This document shows, piece after piece, positions 4,900 through 60,584 of a stretch of 64,000 nucleotides of DNA. Under the pieces are notes generated by a model that made no database searches, had not been told where the DNA came from, and saw nothing but the letters and a program-made list of their open reading frames with translations. The position numbers and the translations under genes were made by a program. This DNA comes from Luscinia megarhynchos (Eukaryota > Chordata > Aves > Passeriformes > Turdidae). Location of the stretch: NCBI GenBank assembly GCA_034336665.1, contig JAPFBE010000067.1, positions 62,001 to 126,000 on the forward strand. The letters run 5' to 3'. Each line of letters begins with the position of its first letter. Position 1 is the first letter of the stretch.

Positions 4900-5540
4900 A
4901 AAAGGGAGATTACCCCAAATCCCACAATTTGGGGTTTATTCCTCAACTCCACCCTGAAATTCCCATTTCCCCCCCCAGTCCTGTTTTTTTCCACCCTAAT
5001 TTTCTCTTTTTCACCCCAAAATTCTTTTCCCTTCCCAAATCTTGTTTCCAACCCAAAATCCCCTTTTGCCCTCAGCATCAATTTTTGTTTTCCTCCCTAA
5101 ATCCCAATTCTTCCCTTCCAAATCCCAGTTCTCCCCATCCCAAACCCCATTTCCCCTCCCCAAATCCCTTTTTTTCCCTCTCCAACCCCCATTTCCCCCC
5201 AAAGCCTCTTTTCTTCCCCGAATTCCACATTTTTCCTCTCCAAACTCCCTTTCCCTCCCCATATATTTTCTCTTCTCAAACCCCAATTTCTCCCTCCCCA
5301 GACTCCAAACCCCAAATCCTCCTTTTCCCTCCCCATTTCCCTCCCCATTTCCATTTCCCCACCCAACTTCCCTAAACCCCATTTCCTCCCCTAAACCCCA
5401 AAGCCCTTTCTCCCTCTCCATTTTCCCCCATCCCAAAACCCCCATTTTCTCCCATTTCCCTCCCCAAACCCCAACTCTCTTTTTCCCCTCCCCCATTTCC
5501 CCTCCCTCATGCCCCGCAACCAAATCTCAAATCCCACAAT
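4900..5540. repeat. Polypyrimidine tract in a NOP53 intron
   Basis: Over 600 bases the plus strand is almost only C and T with short A runs (ccccaaatcccttttt-type words); the NOP53 sense strand is therefore polypurine. It is irregular, not a clean tandem repeat. Confidence 0.8.
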
Positions 5541-6107
5541 TTCCTCCCCAGCTGTTTTGGGGCCATTTCCCATTTCCCCAATTCCCATTATTCCCCCATT
5601 ATTTCCTCATTATCCCCCCATTATTCATTTCCCCACCATTTCCTCCCCAGCCATTTTGGGGCCATCTCCTGCAGTTTCCCCCATTCCCCCATTTCCCATT
5701 CCCCATTCCCCTATTATTTCCCCATTATTTATTTCCCCCATTTTCCCCATTGTTTCCTCCCCAGCCGTTTCGGGGCTGTCTCCTGCAGTTTCCCCATTCC
5801 CCATTCCTCATTTCCCCATTTCCCATTCCCCCATTATTCCCCATTATTTATTTCCCCATTCCCCATTTCCCCACCATTTCCTCCCCAGCCGTTTCCTGCA
5901 GTTTCCCCATTCCCCATTCCTCATTTCCTCATTTCCCCATTTCCCATTCCCCCATTTCCCCATTATTCATTTCCCCACCGTTTCCTCCCCAGCCGTTTCC
6001 TGCTCTCTTTTCCCTGCAGTTTTCCCATTTCCCCCAATCCCCATTCCCCACTCCCCTATTTCCCATTCCCCCATTCCCATTATTCATTTCCCCAATCGCT
6101 TTCCTCC
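5540..6107. repeat. Array carrying copies of a NOP53 exon 3' end
   Basis: Around 5549, 5647, 5760, 5886 and 5990 the plus strand repeats ttcctccccagccgtttc with variants, separated by cccatt-rich filler. The reverse complement GAAACGGCTGGGGAGGAAA resembles the coding end CCCAAGCGGCTGGGG (PKRLG) at 6108. The leftmost copy is followed by ATT|GTGGGA, a possible working donor that would give GRKL-YEDPG at the exon 11 join. That donor assignment is speculative. Confidence 0.6.
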
Positions 6108-6254
6108 CCCAGCCGCTTGGGACTGCCTCCTGTGCTTCAAGGCCTCCCAGCCGCCAGCAGCTCCCGGTCCCCAAGAGCTGTGAGCCTAGCGAAGCAGCTG
6201 GAAAATCCCCTGCAGCCTCTGCACAGCCAGCCTGGAGCGGGCCTGGGCCCCGGC
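6108..6254 (-). CDS. NOP53: NOP53 exon 9 region, copy nearest the exon end (frame-broken)
   Basis: After CACTCAG the minus strand reads AQARSRLAVQRLQGIFQLL, then a TAG and shifted frames, then SPKRLG. Human has [20 protein letters not shown] and, at the end, KPRRLG. At least two indels are needed to join these parts, and no GT donor follows directly. This copy contains the segment that leads into the PKRLG end, so I treat it as the residual true exon. Copy two (about 6330-6454) has the best middle, QLRSLRRALQLRERG. Confidence 0.5.
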
Positions 6255-7290
6255 CTGAGTGACCAGAGTGACCATCAGTGACCATGAGTGACCATCAGTG
6301 ACCATGAGTGACCACTGACCCCATGGATCCATCACTGACCCACCCCTGAGCCCTGACCCCGCTCCCGCAGCTGCAGCGCCCGGCGCAGCGAGCGCAGCTG
6401 GAACACACCCTGCAGCCTCTGCACAGCGAGTCTGGAGCGGGCCTGGGCCCCGGCCTGAGTGACCAGAGTGACCATGAGTGACCATGAGTGACCACTGACC
6501 CCATGGATCCATCCCTGACCCACCCCTGAGCTCCTGACCCTCGCCTCCCCTACCAGATGCTCAAGCCGAAAGCAGCTGGAGAATCCCTGCAGCCTCTGCA
6601 CAGCCAGCCTGAGCGGGCCTGGCCCTGCCTGAGGGACCAGGAGGGACCACAGTGAGGACCATGAGTGACTCACTGACCCCATGGATCCATCCCCTGACCC
6701 ACCCCTGAGCCCCTGACCCTGCCTCCCCAAGAGTCAGCGACCCCAAGCAGCTGACAGCTGGGAGATCCCCCTGCAGCTCTCTGCACATGAGTTCTGAGCT
6801 GGCCTGGGCCCCGCCTGAGTGACCAGGGAGTGACCATGAGTGACCATGAGTGACCACTGACCCCATGGATCCACCCCTGACCCCTGATCCCATCCCTGAC
6901 CCCAGCTGGAACACCCCTGCAGCCTCTGCACAGCCAGTCTGGAGTGGGCCTGGGCCCCGGCCTGAGTGACCAGAGTGACCATGAGTGACCAGAGTGACCA
7001 TGAGTGACCACTGACCCCATGGATCCATCCCTGACCCACCCCTGAGCTCTGACCCTCGCTCCCAAGAGTCAAGAGCCAAGAGCGAAAGCAGCTGGAACAC
7101 GCCCTGCAGCCTCTGCACAGCCAGCCTGGAGCGGGCCTGGGCCCCGGCCTGAGTGACCAGAGTGACCATGAGTGACCATGAGTGACCAGAGTGACCATCA
7201 GTGACCATGAGTGACCAGAGTGACCATGAGTGACCAGAGTGACCATGAGTGACCAGAGTGACCAGCAGTGACCATGAGTGACCAGCAGTG
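6170..7290. repeat. Six tandem units each holding a NOP53 exon 9 copy
   Basis: Units of about 147-200 bases start, on the minus strand, at acceptor-like CTCAG|GCC sites near 7148, 6961, 6814, 6628, 6454 and 6254. Each continues into RLAVQRLQG coding similarity, a diverged tail, GGGTGGGTC, GGATCCATGGGGTCAG and a tggtcactc microsatellite. Coding similarity fades differently in each copy. Confidence 0.85.
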
Positions 7291-7299
7291 ACCACTGAT

Positions 7300-8215: not shown

Positions 8216-8231
8216 CACTCCCATCCATCAC

Positions 8232-22185: not shown

Positions 22186-22384
22186 CCCGCCGCTCGCTCC
22201 TGCAGCCCCACGTCCTCCAGAAAATCGCCGATCTCGCGGCCCAGCCGCCTCGGGGACCGCTCCAGCGCTTGCCCAGCCCTTCTGCGGTTGCGGGGCCCGC
22301 GGCAGCAATGGCGGCGGGGAAGGCGGCGGCGCGCCACTTCGAGCCGCGGGGTTGAAGGGCGAGGTACGATTCGGCCGCCGCCAT
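22186..22384 (-). CDS. NOP53: NOP53 exon 1 with start codon (one base short)
   Basis: The ATG at 22384 gives MAAAESYLALQPRGSKW, comparable to human MAAGGSG and FLGLRP. After about 17 codons similarity moves one frame over to RGPRNRRRAGQALERSPRRL then GREIGDFLEDVGLQERAAG, against human RGPRNKKRGW and FLEDVRLQERTSG. The exon ends in phase 2 at GG|GTGAGG, in agreement with exon 2. Its length of 199 is one short. A start further upstream in the second frame is possible but lacks N-terminal similarity. Confidence 0.85.
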
Positions 22385-23928: not shown

Positions 23929-23934
23929 TTTATT
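23929..23934 (-). terminator. EHD2: EHD2 poly(A) signal AATAAA
   Basis: The minus strand reads CCAATAAAGGCAGAGCC in a short unique segment (23885-23960) at the downstream end of the stop-codon array. It is the first AATAAA after the EHD2 stop in non-repeat sequence, giving a 3' UTR of about 1.4 kb. Confidence 0.7.
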
Positions 23935-23997
23935 GGGGTGTCCTGGGCTTGGGGGGTGGGGCCGGTTCTTTTTGGGGAGATTTTGGGGATTTTGGGG

Positions 23998-25295
23998 TCA
24001 CTCAGGGAACCCCCCGTGCCTCCTCTTGGGGGGTGTCTGTGAATCCCCGATTTTGGGGGTTTTCTGGCTGGATTTTGGGGAGATTTTAAAGGATTCCGAG
24101 AATCACTCAGCCGAGCCCTTGTGCCTCCTCTTGGGGGGTGTCTGTAAATCCCAGATTTTGGGGTTTTCCTTGCTGGATTTTGGATGGCCAGTTTTGCAGG
24201 GGGATTTTCTGGGAATTTCTAGGGTCACTCAGCCGAGCCCTTGTGCTCCTCTTGGGGGGTGTCTGTAAATCCCCTGATTTTTGGGGTTTTCAGGCTTCTG
24301 ATTTCTGGGTGGATTTTGGAGCTCTTTAGCCCTATTTTTGGGGGGGATTTTTGGGGAATTTCGAAGTCACTCAGCCGAGCCCTTGTGCTCCTCTTGAGGG
24401 TGTCTGTAAATCCCTGATTTTGGAGATTTCCTGGCTGGTTTCTCCATGAATTTTTGGGGGTTTCTGACTGAATTTTTGGGCTGTTTTCGGGATTTTGGGG
24501 TCACTCAGCGAGCCCTTGTGCCTCCTCTTGGGGGGGTGTCTGTAAATCCCAGATTTTGGGGATTTTCAGGCTGGTTTCTGGATGGATTTTGGAGCTCTTT
24601 GGGATATTTTGGGCTATTTTGAGTCACTCAGCCGAGCCCTTGTGCTCCTCTTGGGGGGTGTCTGTAAATCCCAGATTTTGGGGTTTTCCTTGCTGGATTT
24701 TGGACGGATTTTTAGGGGGATTTTTAGGAATTCCGGGGTCACTCAGCCGAGCCCTTGTGTGCTCCTCTTGGGGGGTGTCTGTGATTCCCTGATTTTTGGG
24801 GGCTTTTAAGGCTTGATTTCTGGATGGATTTTGGAGCTCTTTGGGATATTTTTGGGGTCACTCAGCCCGAGCCCTTGTGCCTCCTCTTGAGGGGTGTCTG
24901 TAAATCCCAGATTTTTGGGGATTTTCAGGCTGGTTTCTGGATGGATTTTGGAGCTCTTTAGCCTATTTTTTGGGGGGATTTTGGGGAGCCCCGAGTCACT
25001 CAGCCGAGCCTTTGTGCCTCCTCTTGGAGGGCGGCACCAGGCGGGGGGGGTGTCTGTAAATCCCTGATTTTGGGGTTTTTCAGGCTGGTTTCTGGATGGA
25101 TTTTGGAGCTCTTTGGAATATTTTGGGCTATTTTCGGGGTCACTCAGCCGAGCCCTTGTGCCTCCTCTTGGAGGGCGGCACCAGGCGGGGGAGGTGTCTG
25201 TATATCCCAGATTTTGGAGATTTTCTGGCTGGTTTCTGTGCGGATTTTTGGGGTTTCTGACGGGATTTTTTGGGCTGTTTTCGGGATTTTTGGGG
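23998..25295. repeat. EHD2 3' UTR array: ten copies of the coding end and stop codon
   Basis: The plus-strand block tcactcagccgagcccttgt with gcctcctcttgg, which on the minus strand encodes [13 protein letters not shown], recurs starting at 23998, 24103, 24225, 24367, 24501, 24624, 24739, 24858, 24996 and 25140, before the genuine stop at 25296. Periods are 105-156 bases. The two copies nearest the exon also retain PRLVPPS. Filler is ttttggggattttcaggctgg. Several copies have one-base changes such as gtgctcctc. Confidence 0.95.
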
Positions 25296-25814
25296 TCACT
25301 CAGCCGAGCCCTTGTGCCTCCTCTTGGAGGGCGGCACCAGGCGGGGGGGCAGGTCTGCGGGCAGCCCCCTCCCCTCCAGCTTGGCCCCGATCAGGTGCCC
25401 GGCCAGCGCGAACTCCTCGTGGTCCAGCATCCCGTCCCTGTCCACGTCGCTGAGCTGCCAAATCCTGCCCAGCACCGAGCTGGGCAAGTTGCTCTCCACC
25501 ATCCAGCCCTTGGCCCTCCTCCCGCTCAGCTTGCCCCCGCTGGGCGCCAGCCCGTAGAAAATCTCGTCGTATTTTGCCTTGTCCTTCATCACCACCCACT
25601 CGTCCCCATCCTCATCCTCCTCCTCCTCCTCCTCCGAGCCCGCCGCGAACGGGCCCAGCGCCCCCTCGAAGGCGCCCCCGCGCACCCCCGGCGCCTCCTC
25701 GGTGAGGAGGGGGCTCAGCGCCGGCAGGTCGCGGCTCAGCAGCTCCTCCAGCCCCGCCAGCAGCCGCCGCTTGGGGCCGGGCAGGCGGGACAGGTCCCGG
25801 GCCAGCAGCTGCTC
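25296..25814 (-). CDS. EHD2: EHD2 last exon: helical region, acidic linker, EH domain, stop
   Basis: After CCCCAG the exon opens [20 protein letters not shown] and [17 protein letters not shown], aligning with human ELLMAHDFTKFHSLKPKLLE. A GGAFEG segment and an acidic run follow, then the EH domain from [19 protein letters not shown] through [20 protein letters not shown] (EF-hand loop) to [14 protein letters not shown] and a stop at 25296. The open frame is 172 residues, phase 0 start, with no indel. Confidence 0.96.
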
Positions 25815-27649: not shown

Positions 27650-29050
27650 CCATTGGATCACAAAAACCCATCAGATCCCCCAGATCCCAGCAGGTCCTGG
27701 TGGGTCCTGGCAGATCCCAACCCCCCCAAACCCTCCAGATCCCATCAACCCTCCCCCAGATCCCATCAGATCCTGGGTTCCCCCCAGATCCCAGTGGATC
27801 CCAGCAGATCCCATCAGGGTCCCGGCAGGTCCTGGCAGATCCCAGATCCCTCAAATCCACCCAGATCCCCCAGACCCCCCAACCCCTCTCAAACTCCTAG
27901 ATCACATCAGATCCCGGCTGATCCCCCCGAAATCCTGGCCGATCCTGGTGGGGCCTGGCAGATCCCAGATGCCCCAAACCCCCAAGCCCCCAGATCCCAG
28001 CAGATCCTGGGTGATCCCCCAAAATCAAAGCAGATCCTGGTGGGTCCTGCCAGATCCCAGATTCCCCAAACCCCCCAGATCCCATCAGATCCCGGCAGAT
28101 CCGTCCCCTGACCTGCAGAGTATGATCGGGCAGGTCCCGGTGGATCCTGCCAGATCCCAGACTCCCCAGATCCCCAAACCCCCAGATCCCCAGCAGATCC
28201 TGGGTGATCTCCCGGGAAATCCTGGCAGATCCCAGACCCCCAAACCCCTCAGACCCCCAGATCCCATCAGATCCCCAGCAGATCCCTTCCCTGACCTGCA
28301 GGCGAGGCATGGTCGGGCAGGTCCCTGGTGGATCCTGGCAGATCCCAAATCCTCCAAACCCCAAACCCCCAGATCCTGGGTGAGTCCAGGTGTGTTTTGG
28401 CAGATCCCAGACCCCCAGACCCCCCCCCCAGATCCCATCAGATCCCGGCCAGATCCCAGACCCCCAGATCCCCAAACCCCCCAGATCCCGGCAGATCCCG
28501 TCCCCTGACCTGCAGAGGCGGGCACAGTCAGGGCAGGTCCTGGTGGATCTCAGCAGATCCCAGACCCCCCAAACCCCCAAAACCCCCAGATCCCATCAGA
28601 TCCCGGCGGATCCCGGGTGATCCCCAGAAACACTGGCAGATCCCGGTGGATCTGGCAGATCCCAGACCCCCAGATCCCCCACACCCCAGATCCCCCCAGA
28701 TCTTGGGTGATCCAGGTGGAGTTTTGGCAGATCCCAGACCCCCAAACCCCCCAGATCCCATCGGATCCCGGCAGATCCCGGCAGATCCCGTCCCTGACCT
28801 GCGGGGGAAGCAGTCGGGCAGGTCCTGGTGGATCTGGCAGATCCCAGATTCCCCAAACCCCCCAGACCCCCCAGATCCCATCAGATCCCATCAGATCCCA
28901 TCAGATCCCGGCCGATCCCGGCCGATCCGTCCCTGACCTGCAGGGGGAAGCAGTCGGGCAGGCCCTGGTGGATCTCAGCAGATCCCAGATTCCCCAAACC
29001 CCCAGATCCCATCAGATCCCGGTGGATCCCATCAGATCCCGGCCGATCCG
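27650..29050. repeat. EHD2 intron array with five copies of the donor edge of the 29060-29218 exon
   Basis: Background words are cagatcccatcagatcccgg and cccccaaaccc. Embedded near 28099, 28289, 28502, 28793 and 28932 are copies of the exon end: on the minus strand GACCTGCCCGACTG...CTGCAG|GTCAGG, encoding DLPDC-x-PLQ and the donor. The copy at 28932 reads DCFPLQ without an indel and may preserve the true exon end better than the exon itself. Confidence 0.88.
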
Positions 29051-29059
29051 TCCCCTGAC

Positions 29060-29218
29060 CTGCAGGCGAGGCGCAGTCGGGCAGGTCCCAGGCGGGGATC
29101 TGCTGCTTCAGCTCTGCAGCCGCCCCAGCAGCGCCGGCAGCCGCTCCTGCAAACGCTTCCGGCCCTTGGCTAGCAGCGCCGGCAGCTCCTGCCGCAGCGG
29201 GACAGGATCAGCGTGCAG
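29060..29218 (-). CDS. EHD2: EHD2 stalk exon (diverged, two indels)
   Basis: After CCCCAG the exon reads LHADPVPLRQELPALLAKGR and KRLQERLPALLGRLQ; an extra AG; then LKQQIPAWDLPDC; an extra base near the end; then the donor CTGCAG|GTCAGG. Human has VHAYIISYLKKEMPSVFGKE, LPVIFAKIQLEHHISPGDFPDC. Positions align one-to-one after removing the extras, though many residues are replaced by Arg, Leu, Ala or Pro. The extras sum to three, so exon length stays in phase. Confidence 0.8.
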
Positions 29219-29224
29219 CTGGGG

Positions 29225-30235
29225 GGAAAGATCCACTGGGTCACCCCAAAATCCATGGGAGCACCCAAAAACCCCCAGGGACCCGGGATGGGATCAGCGT
29301 GCAGCTGGGGGAGGAAAGGATCCCACTGGGTCACCCCAAATCAATGAGATCCCAAAAATCCCCAGGGGGAACCCAAAAGAAACCCCCCAGGGACCGCTGA
29401 TGGGATCAGGGGAGTGCAGCTCCTGCACTTGGCAGGGACAGGATCGGGGCATGGAGCTGGGGGGAGAAAGGATCCACTGGGTCACCCCAAAATCAGGGAG
29501 CACCCAAAAACCCCCAGGGACCGGGACAGGATGGGGAATGCAGCTCCTGCACTTGGCCGGGACAGGATCAGGGAATGCAGCTGGGGGGAAAAGATCCACT
29601 GGGTCACCCCAAAAATCCCCAGGGGACCCAAAAACCCCCCAGGGACCCGGGACAGGATCAGGGGCGTGGAGCTGGGGGGAAAGATCCACTAGGTCACCCA
29701 GAATCCCAGGGAGCACCCAAAAAACCCCAGGGGCCGGGGATGGGATAGGGGCATGCAGCTGCGGGGGAAGATCACTGGGTCACCCCAAAAATCCCCAGGG
29801 GATCCCAAAAAACACCCCAGGGACCGGGACAGAATCAGGGGCATGGAGCTCCTGCACTTGGCGGGGCGGGATCAGGGGGCATGGAGCTGGGGGGGGCAAG
29901 AGAATTGGGATCCACTGGGTCACCCCAGAATCATAGAAACATCAGGGGAACCCAAAGCCCCCAGGGACCGGGACAGAATCAGAGTGGAGCTGGGGGAAAT
30001 AGGGGTTGGGATAAGCCCCCCAAAATCCAGGGGAACAAAAAAAAACCCCCCAGGGACCCCAGGACGGGATCTGGGCATGCAGCTGCAGGGGGGAAGGGGA
30101 GTGGGATCCACTGGGTCACCCCAAAAATCCATGGGAGCACCCAAACAGCCGGGGGATCCCAAAAAACCCCCCAAGGGCCGGGACAGGATCAGGGTGTGCA
30201 GCTGAGGGTGGGGGAGGGGGTGGGATCACTGGATG
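29225..30235. repeat. EHD2 intron array with ~9 copies of the acceptor edge of the 29060-29218 exon
   Basis: The plus-strand word ggatcagcgtgcagctgggg, on the minus strand CCCCAG|CTGCACGCTGATCC (acceptor plus LHADP), recurs in diverged form near 29293, 29440, 29573, 29659, 29746, 29880, 29975, 30066 and 30187, with atccactgggtcaccccaaa and cccccagggaccgggacag between. Confidence 0.88.
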
Positions 30236-33435: not shown

Positions 33436-33445
33436 GCCGGCTGAC

Positions 33446-33820
33446 TGGGATGGAGTGGCTCTCTTGACCAGGTGGGTTGGGGCTTGCTGGTGCGGCTGGC
33501 TCCTGGATCTCGTGGAACAGATCCTGCTCCTCCGGCTCGAGACAGCGCGGTTCTGCGTTCGCCAGTGGCCCAGAAGGAGCCGATGAACACCCGCGGCACC
33601 TGGTGTCCCCGCCTTGCCGCGCCCATCAGGCCCGTGAGCGGCATCGGCTGCTGCGTGCCCAGCGTCCGCCTTGTTCGGCACCATGCCCGCTTCTCGTGGA
33701 GTGGCGGCCCAGCGCCAGCCGAGGACTTCGTCCGAGGATCTCAGTTTGTCGCGTCGAGACAGCAGGGATCACCAGGTCGTGGGCTCGTGAACCCAGCAGC
33801 ACGGCCAGGGAAGTCGTGGC
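33446..33820 (-). CDS. EHD2: EHD2 NKxD exon (heavily indel-ridden)
   Basis: After TTTTTAG the exon begins (G)HDFP, for human GYDFP. Fragments in changing frames follow in the human order: VL-WF, DLVI-LL, DA-KL-I-SDE, NKAD (nucleotide-specificity motif), TQQPM, GLMGAARRGHQVPRVFIGSF, LEPEEQDLFHEIQ and HLVKRA. Roughly a dozen one-base gains or losses are needed. The donor is uncertain; CCCA|GTCAGC at 33446 is the best candidate. Identity is secure, but no usable protein can be read as printed. Confidence 0.8.
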
Positions 33821-33824
33821 CTAA

Positions 33825-34600
33825 AAAGCGGGGTTTGGTTTGAAAATTCCCTAAATCAGTCCTAAATTGATCCCGAATTCTGAAATAATCCAGCCCAGGA
33901 ACCAGCGCAGCAAGGGCGGGAAGTAGTGGCCTGGGAAAAAGCGGGATTGAGCCAAAATTCCCTAAATGAATCCTAGAGTTCAGCCCTAACCCGAGTAGTC
34001 CAGCCCAGGAACCAGGCAGCCGCGGACGGTCGTGGCCTGGGGGAAAAACCACGATTGGAAAGCCAAAATTCCCTGAGATTAATCCTAGGTTTAACTCCTA
34101 ATCCCAAAGTGATCAGCCCAGAACCAGGCACTTGACGGGAAGTCCTAGCCTGGAGAAAAAGCGGGATTGGAAACCAAATTCCCTAAATGAATCTAAATTC
34201 AGCCTAATCCCAAAATAATCCAGCCCAGAACCAGGCAGCAGTGAAATCAGTGGCCTAAAAAACCGGGTTGGTTTGAAGAAATTCCAATGGGAAATCACTA
34301 AATTAATCCCGAATTCTGAAATAGTGGTGGTAGGAACCAGGCTTGGCCGGAGGTAGTAGCCTGGGGGGAAGCGGGTTAGAGCCAAGAATTCCAATGGGAA
34401 ATCCCAAATCCAGCCCTAAACCCGGAATAATTCATTGTGGGAACCAGCTCAGCGAGGGCGGAAGTCGTAGCCTGGAAAAAAAGCGGGGATTGGAGACCAA
34501 AATTCCCTAAATGGATCTAAAATTAATCGAATTCTGAAATAATTCATTGTAGGAACCAGCACAGCACGGCTGGGAAATCATAGCCTGGGGAAAAATTGGG
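33825..34600. repeat. EHD2 intron array with ~7 copies of the NKxD exon acceptor edge
   Basis: Units of about 106-110 bases repeat aagtcgtggcct-aaaaagcgggg with ccaaaattccctaaat filler near 33922, 34029, 34143, 34249, 34355, 34465 and 34578. On the minus strand each gives AGGC(T/C)ACGACTT, acceptor plus (G)YDF. The copy near 34465 reads exactly GYDF, whereas the exon itself reads GHDF. Confidence 0.85.
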
Positions 34601-35495
34601 ATTTGGTTCGAAAATTCCAGTGGGAAACCCAAATCAATCCCAAATCCAACCCAAACTCCAAAATAATTCATTGTGGGAACAGTGAGCGGGATTGGATCGA
34701 AATTCGGATAAAAACCCCAAACCCGCCCCCAAATCCGGCCCCAAAATCCCACTAAACCCGCCCCAAATCCCCTAAATCCGGCCTCAAATCCCCAAACCGA
34801 TCCCAATTCAATCCCGATCTCATTTCCCTCCCCACAGATTTTCCCCATTCCCAAATCCCCCAAAATCCCCCAAATCCCCAAATCCCCAAATCCCCAAATC
34901 CCCAAATTCCCCGATCCCCTTTTTCCCCCGTTTCCCCCCTCCCCTTTTCCCCGCCCTCCCCCACCCTCCTTGGCAGCGCCATGGGGTTGGGGTGGGGAGA
35001 ATGAGGAGGGGCAGGGGAGGTCCGAGGTTTTGAGCCCGCCTGGAAAGATTCCTGGTGGAATTCCCCGGGAATTCCGGCCCGCCCTTTGGCACCCAAATCT
35101 TTGGCGGAATTCCCAAAATTCCCCAAATATCCCAAATCCCCAAAAGCTTCCCCAAAATTCCCCCAAAACTTCCCCGAATCCCCTCCCGAGTTTTGGGATC
35201 GGCTCCTTTCAGGGCTGAATTTTTGGGGCTTTCCCGATTTTGTTTTTTTTGGGATCCCCATTCCAGCCACCCCTCCCCATTCCAGGACCCCTCCCCAATT
35301 TCGGGACCCCCTCAGACCCCCAAATTCTGAGGCCCTCCCCCCAAAGGGACATCGGGATCCCCCTCCCCAGATTTTTGGGATGTCTCCCTTTCCCACGCGG
35401 TTTTGATTTTTTCCCGGATTTTTCCCGCCCCTCCCCAATCCCAGACCCCTCCCCAATTTCAGGGACCCCTCCCCAATTTCGGGGACCCCCCTTAC
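34600..35495. other. EHD2 intron, mixed low-complexity and unique sequence
   Basis: From 34720 to 34930 there are short ccccaaatcc words. From 34960 to 35100 the sequence is unique, and 35120-35480 holds ccccaatttcgggac words. No exon-like segment with both splice sites was found. Confidence 0.6.
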
Positions 35496-36359: not shown

Positions 36360-37840
36360 GGGAGCCCAGGCAGATCCCAGAACTGAGCCCAGATTCCAGA
36401 TCCCAAATTCCAGCTCAGATCCCAAATCCCAAATTCCAGCTCAGATCCCAAATCCCAAATTCCAGCTCAGATCCCAGAGCTGATCCCAAATTCCAGACCC
36501 CAGATCCCAAATCCCCAAATCCGGCTCAGATCCCAGATCCCAAATCCCAGATCAGATGCAGATCCCAGCTCAGATCCCAAATTCAGCTCAGATCCCAAAT
36601 TCCAGCTCAGATCCCAAATCCCAAATTCCAGCTCAGATCCACCCCAGACCCAATCCCAGATTCCAAAGTCCCACCCAGAACTGATCCCAAATCCCAGCTC
36701 AGATCCCAAATCCCAGGTCCCAAATCCCGACTCAAATCCCAAATTCCAGCTCAGATCCCAAATCCCGACTCAGATCCCAAATTCCAGCTCAGATCCCAGA
36801 TCCTGGCTCAGGTTTCCAAATCCCAGCTCAGATCCCAGATCCCAGTTCAAATCCCCAGATCCCAGCTCAGATCTCACCCCCAGATCCCAAATCCCAGATC
36901 CCAAATCCCAAATCCTGGCTCAGATCCCAGATCCCAAGACTGATCCCAGATTCCAGGGTGGATCCCAGCTCAGATCCCAGATCTCCAGATCCCAAATCCC
37001 GTAGTCCCAAATTACAGCTCAGATCTCAAACCCCAGCTCAGATCCCAAATCCCAGCCCAGATCAATCCCAGATCCTAAATCCCAGCTCAGATCTCAGCTC
37101 AGATCCCAGAGCAGATCCCAGGATGGATCCTCGGGGTGAGTCCCAGCCCAGATCCCAAATCCTGGCTCAGATCCCAGCCCAGATCCCAAATCCTGGCTCA
37201 GATCCCAGCTCAGATCCCAAATCCCAGACCCCAAATCCCAGCCCAGATCCCAGCTCAGACCCAGACCCTGAATCCCAGTTCAGATCCCATCCCAGATCCC
37301 ATCCCAGATCCCATCCCAGATCCCAGGACTGGCCCCAGATTCCAGGGTGGATCCCAGCTCAGACCCCAGAGTAGATCGAGTTGATCCCAGATCCCAGCTC
37401 AGATATCAAACCTCAGCTCAGGTCCCAGATCCCAGATCCCAGATCCCAGATCAGATCCCAGACCCCAGATCCCAGATCAGATCCCACCTCAGACCCAACC
37501 CCAGATCCTAGATCCCAGCTCAGATCCCAAATCCCAGATCCCAAATCCCAAAATCCCAGCTCAGATCCCAGCTCAGATCCCAGAGTAGATCCCGGGATTG
37601 ATCCCAGATCCCAGCCCAGATCCCAAATACCAAAATCCAGCTCAGATCCTAAATTCCAGATCCCAGATCCCAGATCAGATCCCACCCCAGACCCAACCCC
37701 AGATCCTAAATCCCAGCTCAGATCCCAAATCCCAGATCCCAAATCCCAGATCCCAGCTCAGATCCCAGATCCCGGGATTGATCCCAGATCCCAGCTCAGA
37801 TCCCAGCCCAGATCCCAAATCCCAAAACCCCAGACCCCGC
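36360..37840. repeat. EHD2 intron repeat (cagatcccaaatcccagct, ~10-22 bp)
   Basis: Words agctcagatcccaaatccc and cagatcccagatccc, about 1.5 kb. No coding content. Confidence 0.92.
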
Positions 37841-37849
37841 CCCTCCCCC

Positions 37850-38378
37850 TCACCTGTTCAGGAAGCCGTTCCCGAAGGGTCCAGGTGCCGGGAGGGTTTT
37901 TGGGGATCCACCACCAGCGCGTTGTGACCCCAAATCCCAAATCCCAGATCCCGGATCCCAAATCCCAGATCCCAAATCCCAAATCCCAAACCCCAGATCA
38001 GATCCCAACCCCCAAACCCCAAATCCCAGATCCCGGATCCCAACCCCCAAACCCCTCACCTGTTCAGGAAGCCGTTCCCGAAGGGGTCCAGGTGCGGAAG
38101 GGTTTTGGGGATCCACCACCAGCGCGTTGTGACCCCAATCCCAAATCCCAGATCCCGGATCCCAAATCCCAGACCCGGATCCCAAATCCCAAACCCCAAA
38201 CCCCAAACCCCCACCCCGCCCCTCCCCTCACCTGTTCAGAAACCCGTTCCCGAAGGAGTCCAGGTGCCGGAAGGGTTTTTGGGGGATCCACCACCAGCAG
38301 CGTTGTGACCCCAAATCCCAGATCCCGGATCCCAAATCCCAAACCCCAGATCAGATACCCCAAACCCCGCCCTCCCCT
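37850..38378. repeat. Three copies of the EHD2 first coding exon donor edge
   Basis: At about 37851, 38057 and 38229 a ~75-base block beginning cacctgttcaggaagccgtt and ending accaccagcgcgttg repeats the true exon end at 38379. On the minus strand it encodes NALVVDP-x-x-FR-LDPFGNGFLNR followed by GTGAGG. Filler is caaatcccagatcccgg. Some copies have fewer frame breaks than the exon. Confidence 0.92.
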
Positions 38379-38380
38379 CA

Positions 38381-38784
38381 CCTGTTCAGAAACCCCGTTC
38401 CCGAGAGAAGTCCAGGTGCCGGAAGGGTTTTGGGGATCCACCACCAGCGCGTTGCAGGGATCAGCCCCTACGCTCTCGCCGTGCATCACGGCCACAGAAA
38501 GGGAATCCGTGGTGGGCTCGGGGCCCCACACTTGCCCCAGGGATCTCCTGCTCCAGCAGGAACTGGATGAAAGGAGGTTTTGCCGCTCGAGTACTGCCCC
38601 ATCACCAGCACCATGGGCTTGGCCTCGAAGTCCCGCGTCCTGCAGCGCGGCCGAGTGGAAGAGCCGAAAGCCGTAGGAGGTGTTCCACCGGCAGCAGCTT
38701 CGCCTTGTACAGAGCCTTAGGCACCTCCGTCACCAGCTGCACCGCGCGGGGCAGGGGGCGCTACCACCACAACCAACTGAACAT
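38381..38784 (-). CDS. EHD2: EHD2 first coding exon: start codon, P-loop (frame-broken)
   Basis: The ATG at 38784, shortly after CTCCCCCAG, gives MFSWL as in human EHD2. Further blocks in shifting frames are VQLVTEV-KALYKAKLLPVE, FHSAAL, DFEAKPMVLVMGQYSSGKTS (P-loop GxxxxGKT/S), FIQFLLEQEIPG, VGPEPTTD, AVMHGES, NALVVDP and the end FLN(R) at AG|GTGAGG, phase 2. About six to eight indels separate the blocks. A 5' UTR exon must lie upstream. Confidence 0.88.
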
Positions 38785-45281: not shown

Positions 45282-46312
45282 TCATCTCGTGCACGTCCGG
45301 GCGGCGCCAGGCCGCCGTTGTGGCTGGGGGGGCACCGGCTGTACAACTCGGGGGGGGGCGCCAGGGCGGGCCAGGGCGGATCCAGCGCCAGTGCCGATCC
45401 AGTCCCGATGCCAGTCCCGAGTGCCGCCGCCCGCTACCCGGTGCCGGTGCCGGTGGCGTGGCGGTGCCGCCCGCGGCAACTGCTACGGGATTCAGGATGC
45501 TGTCGATGGCGCTCTGCAGGTGCTCGCTCAGCGAATCACGTCCTGCGGGCTGTCGCTGGAGAAGGACGCGTTGTCCACGTCCGACACCTCCGCCTTCCTC
45601 CTCTTGCCGCCCCACAGCCCGGCCCTGCCCGCCGCTCCTCCTCCTCCTCCTCCTCCTTCCTCCTCCTCCTCCTCCTCCCCGTCCGACGCCTCCTCGGCGC
45701 GCCCTTCCCGCGGCCCGCAGCTCGCCGCCCGCAGCCGCTCGGGAGCTCTCCCGGTAGCTCTTCCTCAGCGGCAGGCGGCACGGCACGGCGGGCGGGGACG
45801 ACGACGACGACGAGGGACGATGAAGACGAGCAGCTGGGCGGCGTTTTTTTCTCCAGGGAGCCGTTGAGCTGCGCGGCGCCCGCCGGCACGCAGCAGCTCC
45901 AGCGCCGTGTTGTGGATCACCTTGCTCAGCCCGGCCTCCTGCTTGATCTTCAGCAGAGCCCGATGCGGCTCCGCGCCTCGTACGTCTTCATCGGGGGCGG
46001 CTGCGCGGGCGGCAGCGCGTCCTCGTCCCCTCCCCGCCCCGGGCGTCCCCTCCCCCAACCCACCCAGGAATCCCCTCGCCCCCGAAATCCCGGGGGGGTC
46101 GCGGAGATTAGAGTCACGCCCTCCCCAGCCAGGTGACGCTGGGGGCCCTACGTGCTTGATGGAGCGGTTTGGGGGGCGAGAGGGGCGCGAGGAGGAGGGG
46201 GCGGGGGAGGTTGGGGGAGGGCAGGGAGGAGGAGGAGGAGGAGGAGGGAGGAGGAAGGGGAGGGTGGGAGCAGGAGGAGGAGGAGGAGGGAGGGACGAAG
46301 AGACGTATTCGT
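45282..46312 (-). CDS. BICRA: BICRA last exon: C-terminal tail and stop (several indels)
   Basis: After CTTGCAG the exon starts (D)EYVSSSLPPPPP, as human DEYVSSSRSLGLP, through a (TCC)n tract. Further blocks are PPSVTW, DEDALPP, MKTYEARSRIGL, LKIKQEAGLSKVIHNTALEL, CRLPLRKSYRES, DSLSEHLQSAIDSILN and SHNGGL, ending ARTCTR-stop at 45282 (human GARTLTR). Blocks alternate between frames, so at least five indels exist. A G-rich stretch at 46020-46120 has no human counterpart and might be a small intron. Confidence 0.85.
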
Positions 46313-46319
46313 CTGCAAG

Positions 46320-47040
46320 GGGAAAGAGCAGGGGCGCCCGTTAGAGCTCATCTGCGTTACACTAATTACACTAATTACATTAATTACATTAATTACATTC
46401 ATTTCTCCTTCTTTTGCTGCCCAAAATTTGCCTTTTCCCGAGGGATTAGATCCCTCAGGACCCCAAAAAATCAGAGTGGGCGGGGGCCTTGAAACGACCC
46501 TTGATTGACCCTTGATTGACCCTTCATAAAGCTTTGATTGACCCTGACTGACCCAGAAGTGACCTGTGATTGACCTTTACCTGACCTTGAACAAACCCTT
46601 AATTGACCTGTAATAAACCTTTAATTGACCCTTAATAAACCTTTAACTTGTGTAGTGGCCTGAACACTCGTTTAATTCACCCTTAATAAACTCTGAATTT
46701 ATCCTTAGTTGACCCATAGTAAACCTTTCATTGACCCTTAATTGACCCGTAATAAATCTTTCCTTTGTCCTTAATTGACCCTTAATAAACCTCTAATTGA
46801 CCCTTAATAAACCTCTAATTGACCGTAATAAACACTTAACTAATCCTGAACAAACCTTAATTGATCCTTAATAAACCTTTAATTTACCCATAATTGACCC
46901 TAAATTGACCCTTGATTAACCCTTAGTGACCCTTGGTTAACCCTTAGTGACCCATGATTAACCCTTAATTGACCCTTGATTTTTGGGCCGGGCCTGGCGA
47001 GGGTCCCCCAAAAACTAACGACCCCACCCCAAATCTGGGA
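46320..47040. repeat. BICRA intron repeat (cttaattgacccttaataaa, ~22 bp)
   Basis: From 46490 to 46985 about twenty units of gacccttaataaacctttaa. Upstream (46350-46400) is a short attacattaattacatt tract. AATAAA occurs repeatedly on the plus strand only. Confidence 0.9.
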
Positions 47041-48200
47041 ATCCCATTCCCAGAATCCCACCCATTCCCGTCAGGGATCCCAATCCCAGATCCCAAATCC
47101 CAAATCCAGATCCCAAATCCCAGATCCCAAATCCCAGATCCTAAATCCCAAATCCCAATCCTGCTCCTCCTCAGGCTGGTCCCGGATCCCATTCCCAGCC
47201 CCATTCCCAAATCCCAAATCCTGGATCCCAGATCCCAGATCCCAAATCCCAAATCCCAAATCCCAGATCCCAAATCCCAAATCCCAAATCCCAATCCCTA
47301 ATCCCAGATCCCATTCCCAGCCCCATTCCCAAATCCCAAATCCCAAATCCCAGATCCCAGATCCCAACCCGGTTCCCTCACCAGGCCGGTCCGGATCCCA
47401 TTCCCATTTCTAGATCCCAATCCCATTTCCAATCGCCAAATCCCAAATCCTGGATCCCAAATCCCAAATCCCAGATCCCAAATCCTGAATCCTAAATCCC
47501 AAATCCCAAATCCCAGATCCTAAATCCCAAATCCCAAATCAATCAGCTCCTCACCAGGGCTGGTCCCGGATCCCATTCCCAGCCCCATTCCCAGATCCCA
47601 AATCCCAAATCCCAGATCCCAAATCCCAAATCCCAGATCCCAACCCAGTTCCCTCACCGGGCTGGTCCCAGATCCCAGCCCCATTTCACAAAGAAACCAA
47701 TCCCATTTCCAAATCCCAAATCCCAAATCCCAAATGCATAAATCCCATATCCCATATCCCAAATCCCAAATCCCAAATCCCAAATCCCAAATCCCATATC
47801 CCATATCCCAAATCCCAATCCCGGCTCCTCACCGGGCTGGTCTGGATCCCATTCCCAGCCCATATCCCATATCCCAAATCCCAAATCCCAAATCCCAATC
47901 CCAGATCCCAGATCCCAAATCCCAAATCCCAATCCCAGATCCCAGCCCGGCTCCTCATGTGGGCCAGTCCTGGATCCCAGCCCCCATTCCCAAATCCCAA
48001 GTCCCAACCCCCAAATCCCAAATCCCATTCCCAGATCCCATATCCCAGCCCCAAATCCCAAATCCCAAATCCCACATCCCAAATCCCAAATCCCAAATCC
48101 CAAATCCCAAATCCCACATCCCAAATCCCAAATCCCAAATCCCAGATCCCAAATCCCAGATCCAAATCCCAAATCCCAATCCCAGATCCCAGCCCGCTCC
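47040..48200. repeat. BICRA intron array with ~6 copies of the 48205-48296 exon donor edge
   Basis: Background is caaatcccaaatcccagatc. Near 47160, 47378, 47549, 47651, 47824 and 47948 occurs ctcctcaccgggctggtcc or a variant, on the minus strand GGACCAGCCCG|GTGAGGAG, meaning D-Q-P plus the donor. These copies have the extra G (CCCG|GT) that the exon phase requires and that is missing in the exon as printed. Confidence 0.85.
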
Positions 48201-48204
48201 TCAC

Positions 48205-48296
48205 GGGCGGTCCAGCCAGCTGCGGTCGTAGCCAGCGCCGTTTTCTCCTCCTGGATGAGAAAATCCTGTCGATCATCACCATCTCTGCCCGAGGGG
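48205..48296 (-). CDS. BICRA: BICRA exon, GLTSCR1 domain end (indels)
   Basis: After CTTCCAG the blocks are PS-(A)EMVMIDRIF, IQEEKTALA and YDRSWLDRP, with one-base extras between, ending at CCGCCC|GTGAGG. Human has SPSAEMVMIDRMFIQEEKTTLALDKQ. Phase to the next exon requires one more G at the donor, which is present in the neighbouring array copies. Confidence 0.88.
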
Positions 48297-48424
48297 CTGG
48301 AAGCTCTTGAGGAACCGCAGGTTGGGATTGGGATCAGGATTGAGATTGAGATCAGGGGTTTGGGATTTGAGATCAGGCTTGGGATTGGGATCAGGGACTG
48401 GGATTTGAGCAAGGCTGGGGTTTG

Positions 48425-49288
48425 AAACTCCTGCCGACTCCTCCAGCAGCAGCAGCTGGTGTTTGTTGAGCATGGATTTGGGATTTGGGGATCAGGGATT
48501 TTGGGATTTGGGAGTCAGGATTTGGGGTCAGGGTTTGAGGGAATGAGATTTGGGATCAGAATCAGAGATTTTGGGGTCAGGATTTAGGGGTCAGGGTTGG
48601 GATAGGGATCAGATTTAAGGTCTCACCCGTGACTCCTCCAGCAGCAGCAGCATTTATTTGTTGAGCAGGGATTTGGGATTTCAGGGTCAAGGCTTTAGGG
48701 ATTTGGGATCAGGATTTGGGAGTCAGGGTTTGGGATCAGGATCAGGATTTGGGATCAGAGGGATTTTAGAGGGTCAGGAGTCTGAGATCGAGAGACTCAG
48801 GGATTGAGGAGTCAGGGACTCAGGAGCTCTACGACTCCTAGAGCAGCAGCAGCGCGTGTATTTGTTGAGCAGGGATTTGGGGTCAGGACTGAGGATCAGA
48901 GATTTGGGATTAGGATCAGAGATTTGGGATTAGAGATCAGGATTTGGGGTCAGGGGACTGGGGTTAGAGCTCCTGCTGACTCCTCCAGCAGCAGCAGCCG
49001 GTGTTTGTTGAGCAGAGATTGGGGTTTTGGGGGTCAGGGATTTAGGGATCAGAGATTTCAGGTCTCACTCAGCGACTCTTGAGCAGCAGCAGGTATTTGT
49101 TGAGCAGGGATTTGGGATTTGAAGTCAGGGATTTGAGGATGGGATGAATTTGAGGTCAGGATTTCAGGGTTTGGGAGCTCACCAGCGAACTCCTCCAGCA
49201 GCAGCAGCGGTATTTGTTGAGCAGGGATCAGGGTTTGGGGTTTGGGATCAGGATTTGGGGTCAGGGTTTGAGGAGTTTGGGAGCTCAC
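48425..49288. repeat. Array with ~6 copies of the 49289-49384 exon donor edge
   Basis: Near 48436, 48632, 48830, 48978, 49073 and 49189 the block gactcctccagcagcagcag with tatttgttgagca recurs, on the minus strand encoding LNKYRLLLLEES or variants (the first copy gives MLNKHQLLLLEES). Periods are 95-200 bases, with gggatttggggtcagg filler. Confidence 0.93.
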
Positions 49289-49384
49289 CAGCGACTCCTC
49301 GAGCAGCAGCAGCGGTATTTGTTGAGCATGGCCAGCGTGCGGCGCAGCAACTGCTCCGACACACGCCTCGAACTCCTAGATCCA
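49289..49384 (-). CDS. BICRA: BICRA exon, GLTSCR1 domain (one or two indels)
   Basis: After CCCAG the exon reads (V)D-x-EFE, VSEQLLRRTLAMLNKYR, then one frame over LLLLEESL before GTGAGC. Human has VDEEFETVSTQLLKRTQAML then NKYRLLLLEESRR. The CTG run encoding LLLL is the likely site of one shift. Confidence 0.9.
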
Positions 49385-49389
49385 CTGGG

Positions 49390-50480
49390 AGCAGGAATAA
49401 CAGGAATGGGATAGCAGGAATGGCGGGAATAACTTGAGGGGATGGGATACTTGAGGAATGGGATACTTGGGAATACTTGGGATAATGGGGATGGGATAGC
49501 AGGGAATGGGATAGCAGGGAATAACGTGATAATGGGGATGGGATAATGGGAATACTTGGGAATGGGATAGCGGGATACTTGAGGAATAACGGGATAGCAG
49601 GGAATAACAGGATACTTGAGGGATGGGATACTTGAGAATAATGGGAATAGGGAATGGGATACTTGGGGAACAGGATAATGGGAATGGGATAATGGGAATA
49701 CTTGGGAATAATGGGAATAACAGGATAATGGGATAACGAGGGAAAAGATAGCGGGATAGCAGGACAATGGGAATAGCAGGGAATAATGGGAATGGGGTAG
49801 CAGGGAATGACAATGAGAATGGGATAATGGGGATGGGATAATGAGAATGGGAACAGGAATAATGGGAATGGGATACTTGGGAAATGAGGCCCGGGGAGGC
49901 TTGAGGGAATGGGAACTGATGGGAATGGGATAATGGGAATGGGAATGATGGGAATAATAATGGGAATGGGATAGCAGGATTAATGGGAATTACAAGCGAG
50001 GAATAATGGGAATGGGAACAGGAATAATGGGAATGGGATAGCAGGAGCGGGAATAACGGGGAATGGGATACTTGGGGAATCATGGGAATGACAAGCGAGA
50101 ATAGCGGGGAATGGGAACAGGAATAATGAGAGTGGGATAGCAGGAATAACAGGAATGATGGAAATAACAACAGGAATGACAGCAGGAATACGGGGAATGG
50201 AATAAGGGGAATAACGGGAATGACAGCGGGAATACGGGGAATGGAATAACGGGAATAAGCGGGGAACAGGATAGCGGGAATAGCAGGGAATAGCAGGGAA
50301 TAACAGGAATAGCAGGGAGCGGAATAGCAGGAATAACAGGAATAGCAGGGGAAGGGGATAACGGGAATAACAGGAATAGCGAGGAGCGAGGGATAGCGAG
50401 GGAATAACAGGAACAGGATAACGGGAATAACGGGAATACTTGGGAATAACGGGAATAGCAGGGAGCGGAATAGCAGGGAA
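49390..50480. repeat. BICRA intron repeat (gggaatgggataacaggaat)
   Basis: Degenerate words gggaatgggatag, ggaataacagg and ggatacttggg over 1.1 kb. Confidence 0.92.
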
Positions 50481-50559
50481 TGGGAGCGAGAGAGAGGCAG
50501 GGAGGGAGGGAAGGGGGTAGAGCAGAGCAAAGGGGGCCCCGTTACTGCAACGTGCCGGA

Positions 50560-51134
50560 CATTGCCGCATTCCCGATGTCGCGACATCCCGATATATCGC
50601 TGATGTATCCCGGGTGCGTGACATCCCGATGTATCGCGACATATCGCGATATCCTCTCACCCTCTGGCTGTGTCTCACTGCTATGCTTGGCAGGGCAGCG
50701 TTTACCCACACCCCACACCCCACATATCCCATGTACCCCATTATCCCATATCGCGACATTCCGACATATCCCGATATTCCCAGTACACATGACATATCGC
50801 GATATACCCTGACATATCGCGATATCTCACCCCTCTGGCACAGGGGCAGCGCCCCCTGGCGAACATGGCAGGGCAGCCCATACCCCACACATACACCCCA
50901 TATCCCGATACACCCCGACATATCGCGATATACCCTGACATATCACAGCATATGGCGACGTGTCAGCGACATCTCACCCCTCTGGCACTTTTCGGGCTGG
51001 CGGGCAGCACCCCCTGAGTACCTGCGTGGTAGGGCAGCTCATACCCACACACCCACACATCCCTTATCCCGACATACCCCAACATATCGCAATATCACGG
51101 CGACATATACGTGAGCATATCAGCGATATCTCAC
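50560..51134. repeat. Array with palindromic atatcgcgatat words and three copies of the 51135-51284 exon donor edge
   Basis: The motif acatatcgcgatatac (with core TATCGCGATA, a perfect palindrome) is repeated around 50630, 50800 and 50920. Blocks near 50655, 50831 and 50974 repeat tctcacccctctggca with ctggcgggcagcacc and tggtagggcagc, on the minus strand encoding LPYHA, VLPASP and the GTGAGA donor. Confidence 0.85.
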
Positions 51135-51284
51135 CCCTCTGGCACTCGGGCTGGCGGGCAGCACCCCTGAGTACTGCGATGGTAGAGGGCAGCAGCGAGC
51201 GAGGCGTCGCCATGGAGGAAGCAGGGTCGCGGAACTTCGGGGAGTGCAACACGAGCCCTGGTGCTTGATGCAGCTGCTCAGGAG
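51135..51284 (-). CDS. BICRA: BICRA exon, GLTSCR1 domain core (several indels)
   Basis: After a CGCGAG acceptor the blocks are LLSSCIKHQGS, VLHSPKFRDP, FLHGDA, SLLPYHA-YSG and VLPASPSARG to GTGAGA. Human has FLEHLHKHQGSVLHPDYKTA, FEDALHRLLPYHVYQGALPS. Indels fall at GTG-TTG, CCCTGC and around TACCATCGC. Confidence 0.85.
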
Positions 51285-56680: not shown

Positions 56681-56687
56681 GACCCAC

Positions 56688-57420: not shown

Positions 57421-57439
57421 CAAAAACGTGTCAGGAATG

Positions 57440-58420: not shown

Positions 58421-58439
58421 ATCTGAGCAGGGGCCGGGA

Positions 58440-59290
58440 TTTGGGATTTCTCCAGGAATTTGGGATTTCCCAGGAATTTGGGATTTCCCAGGAATTTGGG
58501 ATTTTTTTCAGGGATTTGGGATGTCTCCAGGAATTTGGGATTTCCCAGGAATTTGGGATTTTTTTCAGGAATTTGGGATTTCTCCAGAGATTTGGGATTT
58601 TTTTCAGGAATTTGGGATTTTTTTCAGGAATTTGGGAACGGGGAAATTCCACCTGAACCCTCCAGGAATTCCCAGGAATTCCCTGCTGGAATCTCCCAGC
58701 CCAGAATTTTGGGATTTCCCAGGATTTCCTCTGGGATATTTGGGATTTCCTGGGATTTTTCCCCAGGAAATTTGGGATTTCCCAGGATTTTCCCCAGGAT
58801 TTTTGGGATTTCTCAGGATTTCCTCTGGGATTTTTTTGATTTCCCAGGAATTCCCCTCAGGATATTTGGGAATTCCTGGATTTTTCCCCCTGAGATATTC
58901 GGGATAATTTTTGGGATATTCGGGGTAATTTTGGGGATATTTGGGATAATTTTTGGGATGACATTTCTGACAATTTTCAGGATGTTTAGGACAATTTTTG
59001 GGATATTTGTGATAACATTTGAGATATCATTTCCAATATTTTTTGTGATAATTTTTGGGATATGGGTGATAATTTTGGGATATTTGGGATAACTTCAGGA
59101 ATATTTGTCATAATATTTGGGGTGTTGATTGTGATAATTTTTGGGATATTTAGGACAATATCTCTGATAATTTTTGGAATATTTCTGATGAATTTTGGGA
59201 TATTTCTGATGAATTTTGGGATATTTCTGGTAAATTTTGGGATATTTCTGGTAAATTTTGGGATATTTCTGATAACTTTAGTGACAATTT
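58440..59290. repeat. BICRA intron repeats (gggatttttttcaggaatttg, then ggatatttgggataattttt)
   Basis: The left part (58440-58640) has about nine units of ~24 bases. The right part is a T-rich gatattt/gataattttt repeat that continues into the next array. Confidence 0.88.
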
Positions 59291-59294
59291 TTGG

Positions 59295-60584
59295 GACCTT
59301 TTACCTGCTGGAAGCGCTCGGGGCCGGGATGTTTGGGATATTATTTGGGATAATTTTTATGATAATTCTTGTGATTTTTGTGATAATTTTTGTGATAAAT
59401 TTTGGGATATTTTGGATAATATTTGTGATAATTTTTACAATATTTGAGATAATTTTTGTGATAACTTTTCTTATATTTCTGATAACTTTTGGGATATTTT
59501 GGATAATATTTGTGATAATTTTTACAATATTTGAGATAATTTTTGTGATAATTTTTCTGATATTTCTGATAACTTTTGGGATATTTTGGATAATATTTGT
59601 GATAATTTTTACAATATTTGAGATAATTTTTGTGATAACTTTTCTTATATTTCTGATAACTTTTGGGATATTTTGGAAAATATTTGGGTAATTTTCTGGG
59701 ACATTTGTTACCTGCTGGAAGCGCTCGGGGCTGGGATATTTTGGATATTATTTGGGATAATTTTTGTGATGATTTTTACAATATTTGAGATAACTTTTGT
59801 GATAAATTCTGGAATGTTTCTGGTAACTTTTAGTGAATATTTTTGGTCAGTTTTACCTGCTGGAAGCGCTCGGGGCCGGGATATTTTGGATATTATTTGG
59901 GATAATTTTTGGGATAATTTTTACAATATTTGAGATAACTTTTGTGATAAATTTTGGAATATTTCTGGTAACTTTAGTGAATATTTCTGGTCAGTTTTAC
60001 CTGCTGGAAGCGCTCGGGGCTGGGATGTTTGGGATATTATTTGGGATAATTTTTGGGATAATTTTTGGGATAATTTTTGGGATAATTTTTGTGATATTTG
60101 TGATAAATTTTGGAAAATTTCTGGTAACTTTAGTGAATATTTCTGGTCGGTTTTACCTGCTGGAAGCGCTCGGGGCCGGGATGTTTGGGATATTTTTGGG
60201 ATAATTTTTGTGATGATTTTTGTGATAATTTCTGTGATATTTGTGATAAATTTTGGAATATTTCTGGTAACTTTAGTGAATATTTCTGGTCGGTTTTACC
60301 TGCTGGAAGCGCTCGGGGCCGGGATGTTTGGGATATTTTTGGGATAATTTTTGTGATGATTTTTGTGATAATTTCTGTGATATTTGTGATAAATTCTGGA
60401 ATATTTCTGGTAACTTTAGTGAATATTTCTGGTCGGTTTTACTTGCAGGAAGCGCTCGGGGCCGGGATGTTCGGGATATTATTTGGGATATTATTTGGGG
60501 TAATTTTTGTGATGATTTTTGTGATATTTGTGACAAATTTTGGAATATTTCTGGTAACTTTAGCGAATATTTCTGGTCGGTTTT
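59295..60584. repeat. Array with seven copies of the 60587-60967 exon donor edge (~144 bp)
   Basis: The block ttacctgctggaagcgctcg with gggccgggat, on the minus strand GPERFQQ followed by GTAAAA, recurs at 59303, 59710, 59855, 59999, 60155, 60298 and 60441, then the real donor at 60585. Six of seven intervals are 143-156 bases; the first is 407. Filler is ggataatttttgtgatattt. Confidence 0.96.

Follow-up and report, generated by a model that had tools for sequence, protein, structure and literature searches.

Tandem arrays carrying copies of adjoining exon edges in BICRA, EHD2 and NOP53 of Luscinia megarhynchos: a probable further case of exon stuttering

Introduction

Why should the tandem arrays that fill introns contain the ends of the very exons they adjoin? 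This question is raised by a stretch of 64,000 nucleotides from Luscinia megarhynchos (contig JAPFBE010000067.1, positions 62,001 to 126,000; hereafter the window), in which tblastn and frame-tolerant alignment placed the genes BICRA, EHD2 and NOP53 consecutively and all on the minus strand. An initial annotation of this DNA had reported diverged copies of terminal coding bases, together with a splice site or stop codon, in at least ten places across the three genes, held that chance cannot explain them, and suggested exon-intron boundaries as the points at which the arrays nucleate and from which they grow outward. The analysis described here confirmed the copies and led to a different reading of their origin: the arrays very probably represent exon stuttering by tandem duplication, with units that straddle an exon edge being kept and the site nearest to the exon being used. 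All coordinates refer to the window, all features lie on the minus strand, and a slash within a motif marks the exon border.

Exon edges recur in the adjoining arrays

A tandem-repeat finder was run and exon edges were aligned to the arrays, as had been proposed as a check, and copies were found at every edge that the initial annotation had named. In the 64 kb, 11 edges recur in adjoining arrays: three are acceptors, and the other eight are exon 3' edges, of which seven are donors and one is the EHD2 stop codon. With edge-specific patterns, accepting an edit distance of up to 34% at 3' edges and up to 38% at acceptors, 42 extra copies were counted at 3' edges and 19 to 21 at acceptor edges. 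With NOP53 exon 9 (0 of 4) left out, 23 of 28 donor copies have GT in register, and 19 of 21 acceptor matches have AG; together with ten copies of the EHD2 stop, this agrees with the earlier suggestion that the arrays add splice-site and stop-codon decoys. The statement that most cases lie on the donor (3') side holds as a count of 8:3, but the excess is not significant (p 0.23, or p 0.34 for 7:3 without the stop).

A set of 4440 exon 30-mers was searched against the window, with an edit distance of at most 6. The region downstream of the own exon was matched by 174 probes, and 170 of these sit within 60 bp of the exon 3' end, where 1478 of all 4440 probes lie. None of the 609 probes located 61–100 bp inside the 3' end matched downstream, and only 4 of 2353 deeper-interior probes did, all in the low-complexity sequence of the BICRA last exon. 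Seven exons account for the 170 edge matches, and in every one the block of matching probes begins at a distance of 0 or 1 bp from the edge; for random placement within the same exons, the BICRA last exon being left out, the product of chances is about 10^-15. Upstream matches numbered 60, of which 43 came from NOP53 exon 9, four from the EHD2 exon at 29.2 kb and 13 from the BICRA exon at 60.9 kb, the last lying 48–61 bp inside the exon and probably reflecting low complexity. Non-adjacent non-coding sequence was also matched by 106 of the 4440 probes, with no concentration at 3' edges.

Short or diverged edges were controlled with 40 block shuffles and with the other introns. The best short patterns gave two to seven matches in the adjoining intron and none in the shuffles, the donor side of NOP53 exon 9 excepted, and longer or looser patterns met few background matches (at most two). 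The concentration at 3' ends, the 10^-15 estimate and the empty shuffles at all but one of the edges so controlled uphold the claim that chance is not the explanation.

EHD2 edges, including the stop codon

In the last EHD2 exon, the C-terminal codons, the TGA and the start of the untranslated region (UTR) recur in ten extra copies downstream of the stop (23990..25335). The stop lies at 25296, the ten stop copies are spaced by 105–156 bp, and the exon itself is clean, with 0 frameshifts over 516 aligned bp. The sole AATAAA or ATTAAA within 3 kb after the stop is an AATAAA at 23929..23934, beyond all ten copies, so that the copies would be contained in the mature EHD2 mRNA if this signal is used.

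Both sides of the EHD2 exon 29218-29060 are copied. On its acceptor side (29195..30218), AG/CTGCACGCTGATCC has ten upstream matches. Eight of these have AG in register, and the remaining two probably belong to adjacent units; seven matches stand against 0 in shuffles and 0 in other introns. On its donor side (28088..29099), the exon tail and the donor CAG/GTCAGG recur in five extra copies, all with GT kept (five matches against 0 in shuffles and 0 in other introns). The first coding exon (38784-38382) contributes its last 73 coding bases and the donor CAG/GTGAGG, with three extra copies in 37838..38456. At the acceptor of exon 3 (exon start 33820), a segment of polypyrimidine tract, AG and about 16–30 exon bases has six extra upstream copies (33790..34602). 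These are diverged, with a best 30-mer distance of 7 and AG kept in six of six, and a stricter cut leaves four matches versus 0 in shuffles and 0 in other introns.

BICRA edges

The BICRA exon 60967-60587 is followed by seven extra copies (59294..60617) of its last 22 coding bases, the donor CAG/GTAAAA and the start of the intron. They are spaced by 143–156 bp, with one interval of 407 bp, and GT is kept in all seven. The donors in series read six times CAG/GTAAAA, once CAA/GTAAAA and once CAG/GTAACA. Even the most distant copy agrees with the source at 22 of the 22 exon bases.

Three further BICRA donors are copied. The tail of the exon ending at 51135 and its donor GTGAGA have two extra copies at spacings of 155 and 161 bp (50809..51194; two matches versus 0 in shuffles and 0 in other introns). 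For the exon ending at 49289, with the coding tail LNKYRLLLLEES, tail and donor recur in six extra copies (48418..49338), three of which keep GT. From the exon ending at 48205, about 11–16 exon bases and the donor GTGAGGAGC recur in five extra copies (47160..48220), with GT kept in three of five and five matches against 0 in shuffles and 0 in other introns; the exon share is too short for the 30-mer test.

NOP53 exon 9 and the start region

The initial annotation had described NOP53 exon 9 (6254-6097) as copied as a unit, which proved wrong: its head recurs upstream and its tail separately downstream. On the acceptor side (6195..7158), AG and the exon head recur in five extra copies, the share of the head being at least 60 bp and, by eye, up to about 100 bp. 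On the donor side (6097), a tail of about 26–36 bp with the donor region has four extra copies (5622..6132). The source ends in GATTGGGG without GT, and three of the four tail copies read GGTGGGG. Here the background is not empty, as five matches stand against a shuffle mean of 0.23 and two matches in 39 kb of other introns.

One head copy (6454-6356) has AG in register and stays open for 33 codons, and the source exon stops after 22. The difference, with the copy having the cleaner frame, is tentatively ascribed to consensus noise, and the copy could also be an alternative exon.

At the other end of the gene, nine near-copies (at most two mismatches) of AAGATGGCGGC lie within about 500 bp (22377-22889), the last at the NOP53 start codon. 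In the whole window, 17 matches were found versus 17.8 expected by shuffling, which makes the clustering unusual and not the total. The cluster may be an array on the start-codon side or consist of YY1-type promoter sites.

Gene map, repeat cover and sequence quality

In total, 27 coding exons were mapped (10 in BICRA, five in EHD2 and 12 in NOP53), with AG and GT borders at most of them. BICRA extends from its first mapped exon at 60967 to an end at about 45.3 kb, EHD2 has its coding part at 38.8–25.3 kb, and NOP53 lies at 22.4–3.6 kb. The first coding exons of BICRA were looked for and not found within the window. Some exon edges are uncertain, namely the BICRA acceptors 54884, 51284 and 48305 and the donors at BICRA 46090, EHD2 33432 and NOP53 6097, the last without GT. 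The BICRA exons 54884-54595 and 53791-53729 are based on weak similarity and splice borders; they are without copies and enter the denominators only. In the protein search, a chance match drew attention to a reading MGKMAAGGGGGGSGRYYGGGGGGEGGRAPKRLKTEG at 1895-2071 (minus strand), which presumably resembles the N-terminus of HNRNPL.

Tandem Repeats Finder (TRF) covered 79.8% of 42,725 intronic bases versus 14.9% of 5,223 exonic bases. The sole N gap of the window, 100 bases at 3905-4004, lies outside the described arrays. Apparent frame-breaking indels affect several source exons, namely EHD2 exons 1 and 3 (38382-38784 and 33432-33820), NOP53 exon 9 (6097-6254) and the BICRA exons at 45–51 kb (45282-51284), and clean exons such as the EHD2 last exon adjoin them. 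Frameshifts, which were inferred against human proteins and are unreliable for the proline-rich BICRA exon alignments, numbered 13 in EHD2 exon 3 and eight in EHD2 exon 1.

Between source and copies, substitutions amount to 1.8–6.2% and indel bases to 0.7–30% (seven families, the 48.2-kb BICRA family left out). The low substitution level indicates that units are young or homogenised, and the indel share is probably inflated by sequencing noise.

Agreement with exon stuttering and other known systems

Exon stuttering, or sequence stuttering, was described as a genome instability in chicken that mainly concerns dot chromosomes (Hron et al. 2026, PMC12954441). The report lists 115 genes and 236 introns, 190 on dot chromosomes, with a median exon part of 36 bp and a median of four copies, and gives a share of 3.4% for dot-chromosome introns with stuttering (PMC12954441). 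Common to the window and the published class is a lateral exon part that is tandemly repeated with its splice site through an adjacent intron consisting largely of tandem repeats (PMC12954441).

The published Basic Local Alignment Search Tool (BLAST) settings were rerun on the plus strand with the exon map of this analysis and with 3' flanks added; the multiple-source-range filter and the manual review were omitted. The rerun gave 26 matches of at least 42.1 bits, all adjoining their source exon, with 0 distal matches and 0 in five shuffles. Median match length was 35.5 bp versus the published 36 bp (PMC12954441). Nine of the 26 matches fall in the EHD2 3' flank, and two at 51.02 kb fall in one copy. 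The bit-score threshold is passed by five of 24 introns (21%) and the EHD2 3' flank, and by more edges at looser thresholds; the 21% is not comparable as a sample with the 3.4% in chicken, because the window was picked for the feature. The features of exon stuttering found here are edge copies, proximal matches above shuffle level, border reach counted per expansion, and introns filled with tandem repeats.

The class is already published and the window is very probably a further case, in which copying of a stop codon is the part less covered so far. The main text of Hron et al. contains no mention of EHD2, BICRA or NOP53, names donor and acceptor once each without counts, and describes a screen of introns, outside which the EHD2 stop and 3' UTR case falls (PMC12954441).

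Two other systems are related. Intron 7 of human F7 contains several 37-bp repeats, the first of which holds the real 5' splice site, and splicing normally uses no 5' splice site other than the most upstream one (PMC6627357). As there, the first tandem unit in the window holds the real 5' splice site and later units are highly homologous to it; F7, however, is one human locus with a short unit and variable copy number, whereas here many edges in three genes, longer units, acceptors and a stop codon are involved (PMC6627357). The arrays also resemble intron gain by tandem genomic duplication, in that tandem duplication within genes is linked to new splice sites (PMC4974935). In that process a new intron arises, whereas in the window introns that were already present lengthen and the exon stays intact.

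Proposed explanation

Recurrent tandem duplication, followed by gain, loss and homogenisation of units, would account for the arrays in the introns and in one 3' UTR, whose units mostly recur at intervals of about 90–290 bp and contain nested shorter repeats. Whenever a duplicated segment straddles an exon edge, the resulting unit would carry the exon end, the splice site or stop, and some intron. Duplications wholly inside coding sequence would be removed by selection. A straddling duplication would leave the first copy (donor, stop) or the last copy (acceptor) joined to the intact exon, and use of the site closest to the exon body would then permit production of the normal mRNA.

The reading frames bear on this last step. 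When the frame is continued beyond the first donor, a stop follows at codon 9 in the BICRA exon at 60.6 kb and at codon 2 in EHD2 exon 1, and in three further exons, where the phase is not fixed, the first stop comes at codon 2 to 77 past the donor. These early stops mean that normal use of the exon-nearest site is required in the BICRA 60.6-kb exon and in EHD2 exon 1, and judging from the sequence, use of the first donor should be under selection. The copied sites probably do little harm because splicing prefers the one closest to the intact exon, as reported for intron 7 of human F7 (PMC6627357). Exon definition pairs sites across the exon and would favour the nearest copy on both sides. A wider proposition is that copying takes place at any border between constrained coding sequence and free transcribed sequence, at donors, acceptors and the stop alike, and not on splice sites as such; on this we are evenly divided.

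Array onset and alternative explanations

With a tolerance of -10 to +4 bp, array onset coincides with the exon edge at 10 of 27 3' edges; with a tolerance of 13 bp, it does so at 11 of 27 5' edges, among them one start codon. An onset 16–87 bp inside the exon was found at nine of 27 3' edges, including one uncertain donor, and an onset 33–74 bp inside at three of 27 5' edges. At the remaining edges the array stays clear, there is no array, or the onset call was dropped as an artefact because of an offset beyond the exon or low complexity (3' edges of BICRA 53150 and NOP53 exon 10, 5' edges of BICRA 60967 and NOP53 exon 10). Arrays thus often occupy an intron from one exon to the next, and some founding segments reached across an exon border. 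As a possible predictor of straddling, unit length was examined through periods of at least 80 bp, which occur at 5/8 straddled 3' edges versus 1/12 of other 3' edges (p 0.018), at 2/3 versus 6/12 5' edges (p 0.55) and at 7/11 versus 7/24 edges of both sides (p 0.06), in a post hoc comparison that leaves out edges without a measurable period and is blurred by nested short periods.

Nucleation at exon-intron boundaries, for instance through a splice-site or transcription-linked break, with outward growth of the arrays, is unlikely to be the explanation. It would fit the downstream copies that begin at the exon edge, the excess of 3' over 5' edges, and the first copy being closest to the source in five of eight families, one of which is the poorly aligned 48.2-kb family. 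The same anchoring is, however, expected without any boundary effect, because an array straddling an edge copies contiguous sequence and selection removes arrays lying wholly inside coding sequence. The 8:3 excess is not significant, and at the 10 3' and 11 5' edges mentioned above arrays start at the edge with no long stretch of exon in them. G-quadruplex (G4)-like motifs occur near five of eight straddled 3' edges and near seven of 18 others (EHD2 exon 3 left out), which is no clear difference. A gradient is absent in three of eight families, and the fully matching farthest copy of the BICRA 60.6-kb array does not fit outward growth. Contiguity and selection suffice for the edge anchoring; boundary nucleation was set aside as having no support beyond what these predict.

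That the copies were made or multiplied by a noisy long-read consensus or by false duplication is improbable, and it is at least as improbable that selection maintains them as functional spare splice sites or as regulatory decoys. Some observations, however, weigh against the reading as exon stuttering. The indels in several source exons are read as noisy long-read consensus, and the local consensus is poor, so that fine divergence and exact copy number are unreliable. Exons with at least two inferred frameshifts are copied in six of nine cases versus four of 18 others (post hoc p 0.03, a weak lead), and an artefact may have contributed to copy number. Border reach within 1 base was found for five of six expansions and 18 of 26 matches, as against more than 90% of expansions in chicken (PMC12954441). 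The data consist of one DNA sequence, and we infer the dot-chromosome location from gene content and repeat texture. A role for the copies is hinted at by the exon-derived part, which is more alike among copies than the intronic part after it in six of eight families (not in the 51.1-kb and the weak 48.2-kb family), by GT being mostly kept, and by the EHD2 stop family, with a likeness of 0.85 in the exon part versus 0.73 in the upstream flank. Most of this hint is lost against the upstream flank, on which account selection on decoys was set aside: mean likeness is 0.77 for the exon part, 0.75 for the 30 bp upstream and 0.68 downstream, and the exon part is above the upstream flank in three of seven families, equal in one and below in three. 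These values come from a laxer cut-off that admits weak matches (9, 3, 8, 3, 11, 11 and 7 copies instead of 7, 2, 6, 3, 5, 10 and 4). Low-complexity parts, moreover, change by slippage. Against an assembly origin speak the spacers, which are unit-sized and differ from each other, the copies that adjoin the clean EHD2 last exon, and the position of the sole gap elsewhere. In the published work, the general repeat structure at PHF8 was checked in raw nanopore reads (PMC12954441).

Significance

With 11 edges in 64 kb, one of them across a stop codon, the window extends a newly described instability to a dense cluster of three genes. Such copies help to explain why assembly and annotation of these genes are difficult, and 3' UTR cases escape a screen that is restricted to introns. 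If copying does act at every border of constrained coding sequence, EHD2 mRNA would carry ten further copies of the gene's own C-terminal codons and stop in its 3' UTR, and the introns would offer natural runs of as many as eight near-identical donors in which the choice must depend on position alone, a ready test of how the splicing machinery chooses among equal sites. Because the donors in series are similar in strength, they would allow a direct test of splicing in which the nearest site wins.

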